A stretch of 45,289 nucleotides of DNA. Source: a virus. The notes under the pieces are model-generated. The model did no database searches, was not told the origin of the DNA, and worked only from the letters and a program-made list of their open reading frames with translations. The position numbers and the translations under genes are program-made. The stretch covers positions 1 through 45,289 of IMG/VR virus record IMGVR_UViG_3300023094_000016. The stretch is one strand, 5' to 3'. Of the stretch, positions 28 to 18,846 are shown piece by piece (positions within the stretch are counted from its first letter, which is position 1; the number at the start of each line of letters is the position of its first letter).

Positions 28-112
28 TGGTGCGGGCGGCGGGGGTCGAACCCGCACAGCCAAGGCCGAGGGATTTTAAGTCCCTTGCGTCTACCAGTTT
101 CGCCACGCCCGC
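28..112 (-). tRNA. tRNA-Leu (anticodon UAA), integration target
   Basis: Read on the minus strand this folds as a class II tRNA. The 7-bp acceptor stem is GCGGGCG/CGCCCGC, the anticodon stem-loop AGGGA-CTTAAAA-TCCCT gives anticodon UAA, there is a long variable arm, a T-arm with GGTTCGACCCC, and an encoded CCA at 28-30. The half from the 5' end to the anticodon (71-112) lies inside the 44-bp att repeat, so this part and everything upstream of it came in with the phage, while the 3' half (28-70) is chromosomal. The gene is intact after integration and must now be transcribed from phage sequence. Confidence 0.95.
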
Positions 113-192: not shown

Positions 193-1287
193 TCACCCGC
201 CGTTCTTGGCGCGTGCCTTTTTCCCCTCGAAAGCCCTGATCACCTTGGCCTCGTTCTCGACGTGCCGAGTGTAGTGAGCGCCCATCCGCTCCGACTTATC
301 GCCCAGTGCTGCGGCGATATCCCCGGTATCCGCTCCTGACCTCTTCAGGTCCGCCGCATAGGTCACTCTGAGGCCATGTAGCGTGGTGCCGGGACCGACT
401 TTCCCCAATGCTTCTATATCCCGCAAATAGTGGCTGACTTCGGTCTGCATCTGCACCTCGTTGTCCCACGGTGACCCATCGGCACGTGTCGTGATATGCG
501 TCGCCAGGGTCTTGTTTCCCCTGATAGCGTCGAGGTGTGTTTGCAGATCGGCCGCCGCCGGCACCCATACGACCTCGCCGTTTTTCCGGGTGATGACGCG
601 GAAACACTTTCCATAAGAGGCGTCGTGCTGATACTCGCGCCATGTAAGCGTCGCGATGGTCTGGCCACGGAAGCCAGCGTACCGAGCGATCAGCAGGATA
701 GTCTTGATGTTGGCTGGAGCCGCGTCGATCGCGGCGTCAACTTCTGCCGCCATCCATTCCCGATTCGCGTTCTTGTCGGCAGTGTGGGCCTTGTCGATTC
801 CAAGAGCCGGGTTCATTCGCATCTTCTTCCGCTTCACCGCTTGGCCGAACATGGACGAGAGGGCGGAGATCATCTTGTCCGCGAAGCGGGGCCATTTCTC
901 GATCGCGCATTTGTCGCGCAATTCGTACAACTCCGCTGTGTCGATATCGTCGAGTTTGGCGTCGAACACATCACGCATATGCTGGAATGCTGCCGTGTAG
1001 TCTTTCTTCGTAGCGGCTGAGAGCGTCTGATATTTTGGGCATTCGAGCTCGAACCATCGAACCAAGTCTCCAAGCGTCCCGGGCTCATAGGTGCGCTTGA
1101 CGTCCGGCTGTCGCCGAGCGTTCCATTTGGCGATGAAATTCTTGTCGCTGGCGAGCAACCGCTTCAGCTCGGCCTTCTCGCCCTCGTAGGGCCCGAACAG
1201 CCGTTCGCCAGTCTCCCGGACGTAGACGTAGAGCTTTCCCCGGGCGCTGACGATGTTAAGCCCTGTGATTTTCAAGGTGACCACCAT
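193..1287 (-). CDS. int: Tyrosine-recombinase integrase
   Basis: This site-specific recombinase would integrate the phage into tRNA-Leu and, with the excisionase, excise it. Counted from the ATG at 1287 the protein has 364 residues. It has an N-terminal arm/core-binding part and a C-terminal catalytic domain with the first Arg in ARYAGFRGQT, the H-x-x-R box HGLR (H304, R307) and the nucleophile Tyr in HYTRH (Y339). The ATG at 1287 has GGAG upstream and begins a typical hydrophobic N-terminus. A longer open frame to 1359 runs deep into the upstream gene and is less likely. The start overlaps the end of the excisionase gene by 32 bp, so the two are probably co-translated. The gene is 79 bp from attL, the usual position. 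Confidence 0.93.
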   Translation of the reverse strand: MVVTLKITGLNIVSARGKLYVYVRETGERLFGPYEGEKAELKRLLASDKNFIAKWNARRQPDVKRTYEPGTLGDLVRWFELECPKYQTLSAATKKDYTAAFQHMRDVFDAKLDDIDTAELYELRDKCAIEKWPRFADKMISALSSMFGQAVKRKKMRMNPALGIDKAHTADKNANREWMAAEVDAAIDAAPANIKTILLIARYAGFRGQTIATLTWREYQHDASYGKCFRVITRKNGEVVWVPAAADLQTHLDAIRGNKTLATHITTRADGSPWDNEVQMQTEVSHYLRDIEALGKVGPGTTLHGLRVTYAADLKRSGADTGDIAAALGDKSERMGAHYTRHVENEAKVIRAFEGKKARAKNGG

Positions 1288-1519
1288 ATAGCCGCTCCGC
1301 CAAGCTCTTCCTTGGAGCGGCACTTTGCTTGTTCGGGTCCATGGACACCAGCCATTCATCCAGGCGCTGGCGAAGATATCGCTCGCCCCTTGTGGATTGT
1401 GTGAATTTCAGTGGACGAACTGGGCAAACCTTTTTGAAGGTCTCGACACAGACGCCGCAATATGCCGCCGCCGATTTCAGGTCCATCGCCGCCGGCCAGT
1501 ATGGGATTTGGTCGGTCAT
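1256..1519 (-). CDS. AlpA/MerR-like excisionase
   Basis: An 87-residue protein whose centre (DLKSAAAYCGVCVETFKKV, then a basic wing ending RLDEWL) looks like the winged helix-turn-helix of small phage excisionases of the AlpA type. Such proteins bend DNA at the attachment site and direct the integrase towards excision; here that role is inferred from the fold and from overlap with the integrase gene. A strong GGGAGGG lies upstream of the ATG, and the start overlaps the preceding gene's stop by 4 bp (ATGA). It could alternatively regulate the operon. Confidence 0.75.
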   Translation of the reverse strand: MTDQIPYWPAAMDLKSAAAYCGVCVETFKKVCPVRPLKFTQSTRGERYLRQRLDEWLVSMDPNKQSAAPRKSLAERLYGGHLENHRA

Positions 1520-1758
1520 TCGCTGCCCTCCCTCGAAACGGGCGCGGGGGTATCGATCATCGAAAGGATGATCGCATCGTGATGGGCTTGCACTGCTGCT
1601 TTCGCGCCCGCCAAGTCATCTCCACCCTTCTTGAATTTCGGGTCTCGTTGGCTGCGCCAGTAGCCAGAGGCATAAGCCGTGTAGATGGTGCCGAGCACCA
1701 CGGCCTCCGCGTCACCTCCGCGATACGGCTTCCATTCGAGCGGATTGACCTTAATCAT
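1516..1758 (-). CDS. Hypothetical protein, 80 aa
   Basis: I do not recognise this small protein. It begins MIKVNPLEWKP, is rich in Ala and aromatic residues in the middle (TIYTAYASGYWRSQ), and has a helical charged segment containing HHDA near the end. The ATG at 1758 overlaps the stop of the DfrB-like gene by 8 bp (ATGATTAA) and has GGGGAGGT upstream, which makes it a better start than the longer open frame from 1944. It is the third-last gene of the leftward operon, between the DfrB-like gene and the excisionase gene. Confidence 0.65.
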   Translation of the reverse strand: MIKVNPLEWKPYRGGDAEAVVLGTIYTAYASGYWRSQRDPKFKKGGDDLAGAKAAVQAHHDAIILSMIDTPAPVSREGSE

Positions 1759-2257
1759 CAGTCTCGACCTCCCCGCCGCCATGGCATTCGGCACAATCCA
1801 TGCCAGTGTCAGGGAAAGCGCCAAGGCCTTTGCAGTGCAGGCATGGCTGGCCTTTTTCTTCTCCCATAGGAGAGGACAGAGCGGCGAGGGCCGTTTCTGG
1901 ATAGATCTGTACCGATCCGGGCTCACGCTCGCTCTCGACGGCATAGCCGATCGGCGTTAGCTCAGTGCTGTAGAAGCCGACAATACGGCCCTGCCAGGAT
2001 GAGCCCTTTGTCTTGCGGACACGGTCGCCGAGCGCGAATTTTCCGCCCATCGCAATATGGGTGGGCGATGGGGTGCGACCATCTGCACGGTCTGCATAGA
2101 TGATACCATCGACGATCTGGGCGCACGTCTGCTTCTGAGCTGCCGTCAGGCCGTCATAGAAGTCCATGCACCCGAGCTTCTGCTTTGAATAGCGGTCGGA
2201 CCAGAGGGCCATAGCTACGCGGGCTTCGGCGTGCGGGTTGAGGTTGCGGTCGCTCAT
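1751..2257 (-). CDS. R67/DfrB-type SH3 domain fused to a CxxC zinc knuckle
   Basis: A 168-residue protein in three parts. Residues 1-70 are an unassigned helical region. Residues 72-127 (KFALGDRVRK...VQIYPETALA) closely resemble the SH3-like fold of plasmid R67 type B dihydrofolate reductase, which reduces dihydrofolate as a homotetramer and resists trimethoprim. The residues I recall as essential in R67 (Lys32, Trp38, Ser65, Gln67, Ile68, Tyr69) are present as K82, W88, S115, Q117, I118 and Y119. By my memory of R67 about two thirds of the 54 aligned positions are identical. Residues 139-158 hold CxxC...CxxC (C139, C142, C155, C158) with a DnaJ-like CxGxG spacing. R67 is only 78 residues, so both flanking domains are extra. 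Enzyme activity is an inference; the fold could instead bind nucleic acid or protein. Confidence 0.8.
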   Translation of the reverse strand: MSDRNLNPHAEARVAMALWSDRYSKQKLGCMDFYDGLTAAQKQTCAQIVDGIIYADRADGRTPSPTHIAMGGKFALGDRVRKTKGSSWQGRIVGFYSTELTPIGYAVESEREPGSVQIYPETALAALSSPMGEEKGQPCLHCKGLGAFPDTGMDCAECHGGGEVETDD

Positions 2258-14326: not shown

Positions 14327-14502
14327 CCGACGCCCTTACCGACCTCTCCGAAGAGATAAAATTCCTCGACGAGGAGATCCGCGGCCTCAAGGCCCGCACG
14401 ACGGGGAGTGAAACCCAGGTCCACAAGCTCTCGATGCTCACCCGCCTTCGCGAGCGCTGCGAGCGTTCCAAGCAGGCGATAGAGCGGAAGGCAGGGCAAT
14501 GA
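14323..14502 (+). CDS. Small coiled-coil protein, 59 aa
   Basis: A highly charged helical protein (MTDALTDLSEEIKFLDEEIR, ending with KQAIERKAGQ). The start overlaps the cytosine methyltransferase stop by 4 bp (ATGA) and the stop overlaps the start of the next methyltransferase by 4 bp, so it is translated with both. It might be an adaptor or dimerisation factor, but no family is recognised. Confidence 0.6.
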   Translation: MTDALTDLSEEIKFLDEEIRGLKARTTGSETQVHKLSMLTRLRERCERSKQAIERKAGQ

Positions 14503-15662
14503 TCGAAACCAGAACACTCCTCGACGGCCGCTGCACCATGCTTGTCGGCGATTGCATCGACGCAATGCGTTCCATGCCGGCGAACTCTGTCGATTGCGTC
14601 GTCACGTCGCCGCCCTACTGGGGACTTCGCGATTATGGTGTCGCAGGCCAGATCGGGCTTGAACCGACGCTCGCCGAGCATCTGCAGGTCATGGTGCAGG
14701 TGTTCCAAGAAGTTCGCCGAATCCTGAAGCCGCAGGGAACGCTCTGGCTGAACTACGGCGACTGCTATGCCACCACGCCGAATGGTAAGTCGGCCGCTGC
14801 ATACAAAGCCGACGGTTCTGACGATCGCACTTTCCGTGACAAACCTTTCTCGACAATCGGCGGCGCGCTGAAGCCTAAGGATCTATGCATGATCCCGAAC
14901 CGGCTGGCGATCGCCCTGCAGGAGGACGGCTGGTACGTTCGATCCGAGATCATCTGGCACAAGCCCAATCCCATGCCGGAATCGGTCTATGACCGCCCGA
15001 CCTCGTCACATGAGAAGATCTGGCTGCTGACGAAGGGCGAGGACTACTTCTACGATCACGAGGCCATTCGCGAGCCAGTGAGCGGTACCGCTCACGCCCG
15101 CAAGCCTGGCCCGAACAGCCGACAGAACGTCGACCGCGTTCCTCGATCGAGAAAAGGCAGCTCCGGCGTAGGCTGGGGCCGTCTCGACAAGATCAATCCG
15201 GGCGAAACCGATCGAGGCCGTGACCGTATTGTCTCGAAGATGGCGGACGAGAGCGATCCCTTCAGGAAGTCGAAGCCATCCTTCGCAGCATCGACCGGCG
15301 ACCTCGTCGAAACGAAGAACGCCCGCAACGTCTGGACTATCGCTCCAAAGGCGTTCCGCGAGGCGCATTTTGCGACGTTCCCGCCGGCGCTGGCCGAGCG
15401 TTGCATAAAAGCTGGAACACCGAAAACCATCTGCTCATGCTGTGGAGCCGTTGAAGGCTGTGGCCTGATCTGTGAGGTGTTCGGCCGAGAGCCTGGCGTC
15501 GTCTTCGATCCTTTCGGCGGCGCCGGCACGGTCTCGCTCGTAGCTGAGCAGCTTGGGCTCCGATCCATCATGGTCGAGTTGAACCCTGAATATGCTGAAA
15601 TCGCTGAGCGCCGGATAACGGGCGTGCCCATCCCGATCGAGACGGAAGGAGAGGCAGCATGA
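14499..15662 (+). CDS. DNA N4-cytosine/N6-adenine methyltransferase
   Basis: A 387-residue amino-methyltransferase. The catalytic motif TSPPYW (S37-Y40) precedes the SAM-binding DPFGGAGT (337-344), the beta-type order. SPPY is compatible with N4-cytosine or N6-adenine methylation. A long insert (about residues 190-290) would hold the target-recognition domain, and CSCCG (about residues 312-318) may bind zinc. It is coupled to the 59-aa gene and followed by a nuclease gene (VRR-NUC), but no matched restriction enzyme is evident, so an orphan protective or regulatory enzyme is most likely. Confidence 0.9.
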   Translation: MIETRTLLDGRCTMLVGDCIDAMRSMPANSVDCVVTSPPYWGLRDYGVAGQIGLEPTLAEHLQVMVQVFQEVRRILKPQGTLWLNYGDCYATTPNGKSAAAYKADGSDDRTFRDKPFSTIGGALKPKDLCMIPNRLAIALQEDGWYVRSEIIWHKPNPMPESVYDRPTSSHEKIWLLTKGEDYFYDHEAIREPVSGTAHARKPGPNSRQNVDRVPRSRKGSSGVGWGRLDKINPGETDRGRDRIVSKMADESDPFRKSKPSFAASTGDLVETKNARNVWTIAPKAFREAHFATFPPALAERCIKAGTPKTICSCCGAVEGCGLICEVFGREPGVVFDPFGGAGTVSLVAEQLGLRSIMVELNPEYAEIAERRITGVPIPIETEGEAA

Positions 15663-18770: not shown

Positions 18771-18846
18771 TGAAGCGTAGCTCAGTCGGTAGAGCAGGCG
18801 ACTGTTAATCGCCTTGTCGCAGGTTCGAGCCCTGCCGTTTCAGCCA
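18771..18846 (+). tRNA. Phage tRNA-Asn (anticodon GUU)
   Basis: A full cloverleaf: acceptor TGAAGCG/CGTTTCA with one G-U pair, D-arm AGCTC...GAGC, anticodon arm GGCGA-CTGTTAA-TCGCC (anticodon GUU), T-arm GCAGG-TTCGAGC-CCTGC, discriminator G and an encoded CCA. It lies inside the prophage away from att, so it is a phage gene and not an integration scar. It may supplement Asn codons in late genes or replace a host tRNA cleaved in defence. Confidence 0.93.

Follow-up and report, generated by a model that had tools for sequence, protein, structure and literature searches.

We have analyzed a 45,289-base viral DNA record (hereafter the window), a temperate phage related to rhizobial prophages, and find that an early gene beside its integrase encodes a 168-residue protein, P0001, in which a true R67/DfrB-type domain with the predicted SH3-like fold of R67 is joined to other modules. 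The domain is a shuffled cassette that has been exchanged between unrelated phage proteins. As a whole we favour, with a probability of roughly 0.6, the explanation that P0001 is a modular early protein whose domain, acquired as a cassette, would form a tetrameric reductase for folate supply.

The features discussed here are collected in Table 1. The open reading frame reported in an earlier note, which named no strand, is real and lies on the minus strand; its nearest relatives are in Rhizobiales prophages. The locus falls in the integrase-proximal early region, where a leftward operon following the integrase comprises the P0001 gene, an HNH-like gene, NinB, a YqaJ exonuclease and an ERF annealing protein; with the integrase and tRNA-Leu nearby, this bears out the description of the gene as an early gene of a temperate phage. 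The structural genes (head-tail connector, GP7 capsid protein, Bbp16 and a T7 gp14-like protein) are oriented rightward, and ahead of them lies a phage-borne tRNA-Asn(gtt) at 18771-18846. No thyA, thyX or FolA-type (DHFR_1) reductase gene was found within the window.

Table 1. Features of the P0001 locus, in positions of the window
Feature	Position	Strand	Remarks
tRNA-Leu(taa)	28..112	-	likely attachment end; att role presumed
Tyrosine integrase	193..1287	-	
Next gene, 80 aa, 'IKVNPLEW' module	1516..1758	-	
P0001, 168-aa modular early protein	1751..2257	-	ORF: ATG at 2257, stop ends at 1751
Two CXXCXGXG motifs, residues 139-162	1772..1843	-	DnaJ/anti-TRAP-like putative zinc site
Gene-end cassette	1861..1891	-	in L090 and L144 ends GGAG(G)...GGGGAATGA, Shine-Dalgarno plus stop/start; altered and read through in the window
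DNA cassette in common with L090 (91%)	1864..2041	-	L002 shares 1883-2041 (89%)
R67/DfrB-type SH3-like domain, PF06442, residues 72-127	1877..2044	-	
N-terminal helical module, residues 1-65	2063..2257	-	
Start/RBS cassette in common with L002	2250..2289	-	95% over 40 bp

The identification of the domain was made to depend, in the earlier note, on a match to Pfam PF06442 (DHFR_2). Residues 72-125 match this family with 88.5 bits (E = 2.7e-25), well above its cut-off of 25 bits, and relatives occur widely in phages, those of rhizobia included. The domain also matches the R67 chains in the PDB (E = 2.7e-19). Its identity to R67 is 36/55 (65%), in agreement with the earlier estimate of about two-thirds, and the active-site residues are kept as claimed. 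With P0001 numbers equal to R67 numbers plus 50, K32 corresponds to K82, W38 to W88 and V66-Q67-I68-Y69 to V116-Q117-I118-Y119. Two substitutions relative to R67 are W45 to F95 and H62 to E112, the latter also found in the tetrameric homologue DfrB-H5. AlphaFold2 was run on clean alignments, since MAFFT alignments that mixed fragments of the N-terminal module and the domain were misaligned and were left out. With a 39-row alignment the domain is modelled at a pLDDT of about 90, and Foldseek places the predicted structure on R67 (1vie, 2rk1 and 3sfm) with TM scores of 0.87-0.91 of the target, at 1.1 Å and E values of 2-4e-6; no fold other than R67 was returned below E = 0.01. P0001 thus resembles R67 (DfrB1), a type II dihydrofolate reductase, in predicted fold and active-site residues, but differs in being a fusion of 168 residues that lies neither on a plasmid nor in an integron. 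It also falls outside the DfrB1-21-type resistance genes, which are stand-alone proteins of about 78 residues: its score against NCBIfam NF000331 (trim_DfrB) is 92.7 bits, short of the resistance cut-off of 137 bits.

The domain was found in 26 phage records, 271 viral-contig stretches and 54 genome loci. Among 125 distinct homologues (69 after clustering at 85%), K32, W38, G40, G44, Y46, G54, V66, Q67 and P70 are invariant, I68 and Y69 have one variant each, and position 45 is free to vary. The flanking sequences are far less constrained: flanks of at least 30 residues form 42 unrelated clusters on the N-terminal side and 23 on the C-terminal side, and 56 proteins consist of the domain alone, these counts being approximate because start codons were chosen by rule. 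The extreme variability of the flanks suggests that the protein owes part of its function to regions outside the domain.

Stand-alone DfrB-like proteins of about 70 residues (FQMGDYAAKKGRASWRGKIVGWYRTD...; L128, L129, L130, L134, L136, L137 and L138) make up a second family, chromosomal in Bradyrhizobium, Ensifer, Sphingomonas and Novosphingobium, with 95% clade support and an intact VQIY; ORFs read by eye around these chromosomal genes included no obvious thymidylate or folate gene. In a cluster of viral contigs, together with Pseudomonas phage PS-1 and Stutzerimonas relatives, the domain lies at the C-terminal end of the protein or close to it; the N-terminal sequence ahead of it varies extremely, and the pieces 'RPAQTEQQP' and 'PLYAAP' recur in it (L010, L033, L039-L041, L045-L047, L051, L052, L055, L056, L058, L060-L064, L066, L073, L074, L077-L079, L083, L089 and L127). 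The subfamily of L011, L121, L125 and L142, which includes stand-alone genes of Rhizobium Schitoviridae, reads G-P-VQIYP in place of G-S-VQIYP and is changed at positions 58-59. The domain gene of Vibrio phage 1.030.O (DfrB-H4 type; L009:3689-4345) is located among tail genes, such as those for a DNA circulation protein and baseplate J, rather than among early genes.

The N-terminal 65 residues of P0001 matched no family in Pfam or PHROG. They are predicted to be helical, with three helices in the 39-row model and four segments (pLDDT 83-89) in another. Neither the N-terminal nor the C-terminal part alone matched anything among the phage records, and a search of viral contigs with the N-terminal module added one further locus. 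The same module is found apart from the reductase domain in L090, L121, L144 and L016. The C-terminus, CLHCKGLG...CAECHGGG, had been described as a zinc knuckle. This label has to be replaced: the tail carries two CX2CXGXG motifs resembling those of DnaJ and anti-TRAP and does not fit the CCHC pattern CX2CX4HX4C. Its matches to DnaJ and anti-TRAP profiles are weak and under the cut-offs (E = 0.002-0.05; PDB 1exk, E = 0.0019), and it is of low confidence in the AlphaFold2 model.

Comparison with related contigs shows how these parts have been combined. L090, a prophage contig of a Rhizobiales bacterium whose integrase end is related to that of the window, has 91% DNA identity to window positions 1864-2041, which is exactly the domain, and to 2063-2257, which is exactly the N-terminal module. 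There the N-terminal module is a gene of its own and the domain is part of the following gene, behind a 'VKPLEW' module. Modules of this kind are fused ahead of the reductase domain in both L090 and L007; in the window the module forms a separate downstream gene. L002 carries the domain, at 89% DNA identity, within a 258-residue protein with a different N-terminus. When the window was compared with L090, L002 and L092 in 15-base bins, matches dropped from 11-15 to background at both edges of the domain. Over the 48 codons compared, the P0001 domain differs from that of L002 by 16 synonymous changes and from that of L090 by 15, with no non-synonymous change in either case; the domain is under purifying selection.

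The junctions themselves have features in common. In L002, L121, L144 and L090 the gene ends double as ribosome-binding sites, reading GGAGGA(T/C)CAGCCATGA or GGAG(G)GCGGGGAATGA. The window keeps the preceding CTGTCCTCTCCTATGG and then diverges; its stop codon is lost, and the frame continues into the CXXCXGXG tail. At the other end of the gene, the start/RBS cassette precedes an unrelated N-terminal coding sequence in L002. This arrangement suggests that recombination has taken place at ribosome-binding-site junctions.

Phage homologues of DfrB, including multi-domain proteins and some with activity, have already been published, and P0001 is another member of this group. Lemay-St-Denis et al. 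(2023; PMC9835603), whose DfrB-H proteins include DfrB-H3 from a Pseudomonas phage (PS-1 here), DfrB-H4 from a Vibrio phage and DfrB-H5 from M. pseudosasicola, assayed five multi-domain or extended homologues; four of the five conferred trimethoprim resistance on E. coli. DfrB-H5 forms an active tetramer whose kinetics resemble those of R67, and DfrB-H3 displayed no activity, for which the authors blame a lack of soluble expression. We identified DfrB-H5 as L123, a 365-residue protein in which the VQIY tyrosine is Y267, matching the published position; its domain is 70% identical to that of P0001, and both have E at 62 and an aromatic residue at 45. P0001 and the DfrB-H proteins alike embed an SH3-like domain that keeps K32, W38 and VQIY in a longer chain of mostly unknown function, but P0001 has other N- and C-terminal modules, the CXXCXGXG tail and the exchange of DNA cassettes between adjacent genes. 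Positions 14499-15662 of the window encode an N6/N4-type DNA methyltransferase; the published DfrB-H genes were likewise noted near DNA methyltransferases. Two other reports list dfrB-like genes of phages, one a dfrA/dfrB survey of lytic phages with eight candidate DfrB homologues (PMC12466917) and the other describing four dfrB2-like ORFs in freshwater viruses (PMC7265639); in what we consulted of them, neither deals with fusions, with cassette exchange or with the mutual exclusion of reductase types described below. In the literature on phage DfrB homologues, to the extent that it was available to us, we found no earlier description of either the cassette exchange or this exclusion.

The DHFR_2 genes of Rhizobium and Sinorhizobium phages (phiM9_002 and those of RHEph16, RHph_TM3_3_3 and RHph_N3_2) encode the same domain. 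The temperate copies are like P0001 in being fused proteins encoded near an integrase, whereas those of phiM9 and RHEph16 are stand-alone and belong to genomes with thymidylate synthase. Among 50 carriers of the domain, four have thyA, all of them large virulent-type phages, and none has ThyX or a FolA-type reductase. We then considered 13 phages of alphaproteobacteria that encode thymidylate synthase. Seven have only the R67-type enzyme (phiM9, RHEph16, Y38, N38, I1_6, RHEph24 and ZX86), four have only a FolA-type enzyme, encoded beside the synthase (phiM12, phiN3, phiM7 and P10VF), and two have neither (X2_28B and ort11); DHFR_1 and DHFR_2 co-occur in none of the 13, among which there are few independent lineages. 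The proposal that every thymidylate-synthase phage needs a dihydrofolate reductase of its own was rejected on account of the last two phages. phiM9, which belongs to the same family as P10VF, carries two td genes; if the genome ends join, its DHFR_2 gene would share an operon with td.2, lying a few genes upstream of it. The distribution supports the view that the two types of reductase replace one another in thymidylate-synthase phages, in what are few independent cases, and the mutual exclusion suggests a real reductase role in such phages of alphaproteobacteria.

The explanation that we favour assigns a role to each part of P0001, a helical N-terminal module followed by the R67/DfrB-type domain and the CXXCXGXG pair. 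The domain would assemble into an R67-type homotetramer. In its one central pore, with V116-Q117-I118-Y119 as the lining and K82 at the entrance, NADPH and dihydrofolate would be held and brought together for hydride transfer. P0001 would then be a trimethoprim-insensitive dihydrofolate reductase that raises the supply of tetrahydrofolate for nucleotide synthesis during phage growth. Its gene would have received the domain as a cassette swapped among adjacent early genes; the C-terminal motif would have been joined on at a site that in relatives holds a stop codon and ribosome-binding site. Published homologues, among them the active tetramer DfrB-H5, make it quite probable that the domain is tetrameric and active. 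The odds that folate reduction is the native task in this phage appear slightly less than even. Since the phage has no thymidylate synthase, as is true of nearly all temperate carriers, we can only infer its role. The suggestion of folate supply in the earlier note finds indirect support in the virulent phages that themselves encode a thymidylate synthase but none among the genes of this phage.

A distinctly less likely view was proposed in PMC9835603: the domain may be catalytically able but a reductase by accident, serving natively in mosaic phage early proteins as an SH3-like module for tetramerisation or ligand binding. The many unrelated flanks and the temperate carriers devoid of folate and thymidylate genes fit this, as does the description of R67-type enzymes as primitive and poorly evolved (PMC9835603). 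It accounts less readily for the virulent phages that appear to use the R67-type in place of the FolA-type enzyme, or for the near-invariance of K32, Q67, I68 and Y69 over 125 sequences, which indicates that the pore itself is under selection. A conserved pore within variable flanks could also be expected if the tetramer bound some other nucleotide-like ligand, acting, for instance, as a sponge that takes up a signal nucleotide of a host defence system. Counter-defence genes are often located in fast-shuffled early regions beside the integrase, which is where the P0001 gene lies; P0001, however, had no match in a scan of defence families, and the association with thymidylate synthase in virulent phages points to folate, so that we consider a counter-defence module improbable. 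It is most improbable that the domain represents a trimethoprim-resistance gene captured under selection from drug use. The family is that of dfrB and has relatives on 98 plasmid records, but P0001 is no more than 83% identical to any plasmid copy, its nearest kin are in rhizobial prophages, the phage diversity of the domain is deep, and the best-supported matches of the window's genes include no integron or resistance family. Tetrameric folate reduction by a modular early protein remains our preferred reading.

The original function of the DfrB family has been called unknown or poorly understood (PMC9835603, PMC11662351), and Burkholderiales chromosomes have been proposed as the source of plasmid dfrB (PMC11662351). 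The earlier note saw phages as a candidate reservoir. This holds insofar as phages contain a large pool of the domain, the closest viral copy to R67 among those found being a stand-alone 69-residue protein (L076:6001-6171) with 82% identity in the domain; P0001 itself is much more distant, and the domain tree, with 56 columns and mostly unresolved, is too short to settle the origin of plasmid DfrB. A nested position of plasmid DfrB inside viral sequences was dropped as a conclusion, since a clade of cellular stand-alone forms was not rejected (p-AU 0.67). It is conceivable, if on balance doubtful, that R67-type reductases are at home in phages, with virulent phages using them in place of the FolA-type enzyme, temperate phages shuffling them among early proteins at conserved ribosome-binding-site junctions, and stand-alone plasmid dfrB having been excised from these. 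The exclusion between FolA-type and R67-type enzymes, as in phiM9 and P10VF of one family, makes the question of native function directly testable. Two related phages that carry a near-identical domain in different genes provide a direct molecular picture of its excision and re-joining, the step by which plasmid dfrB has been proposed to arise.
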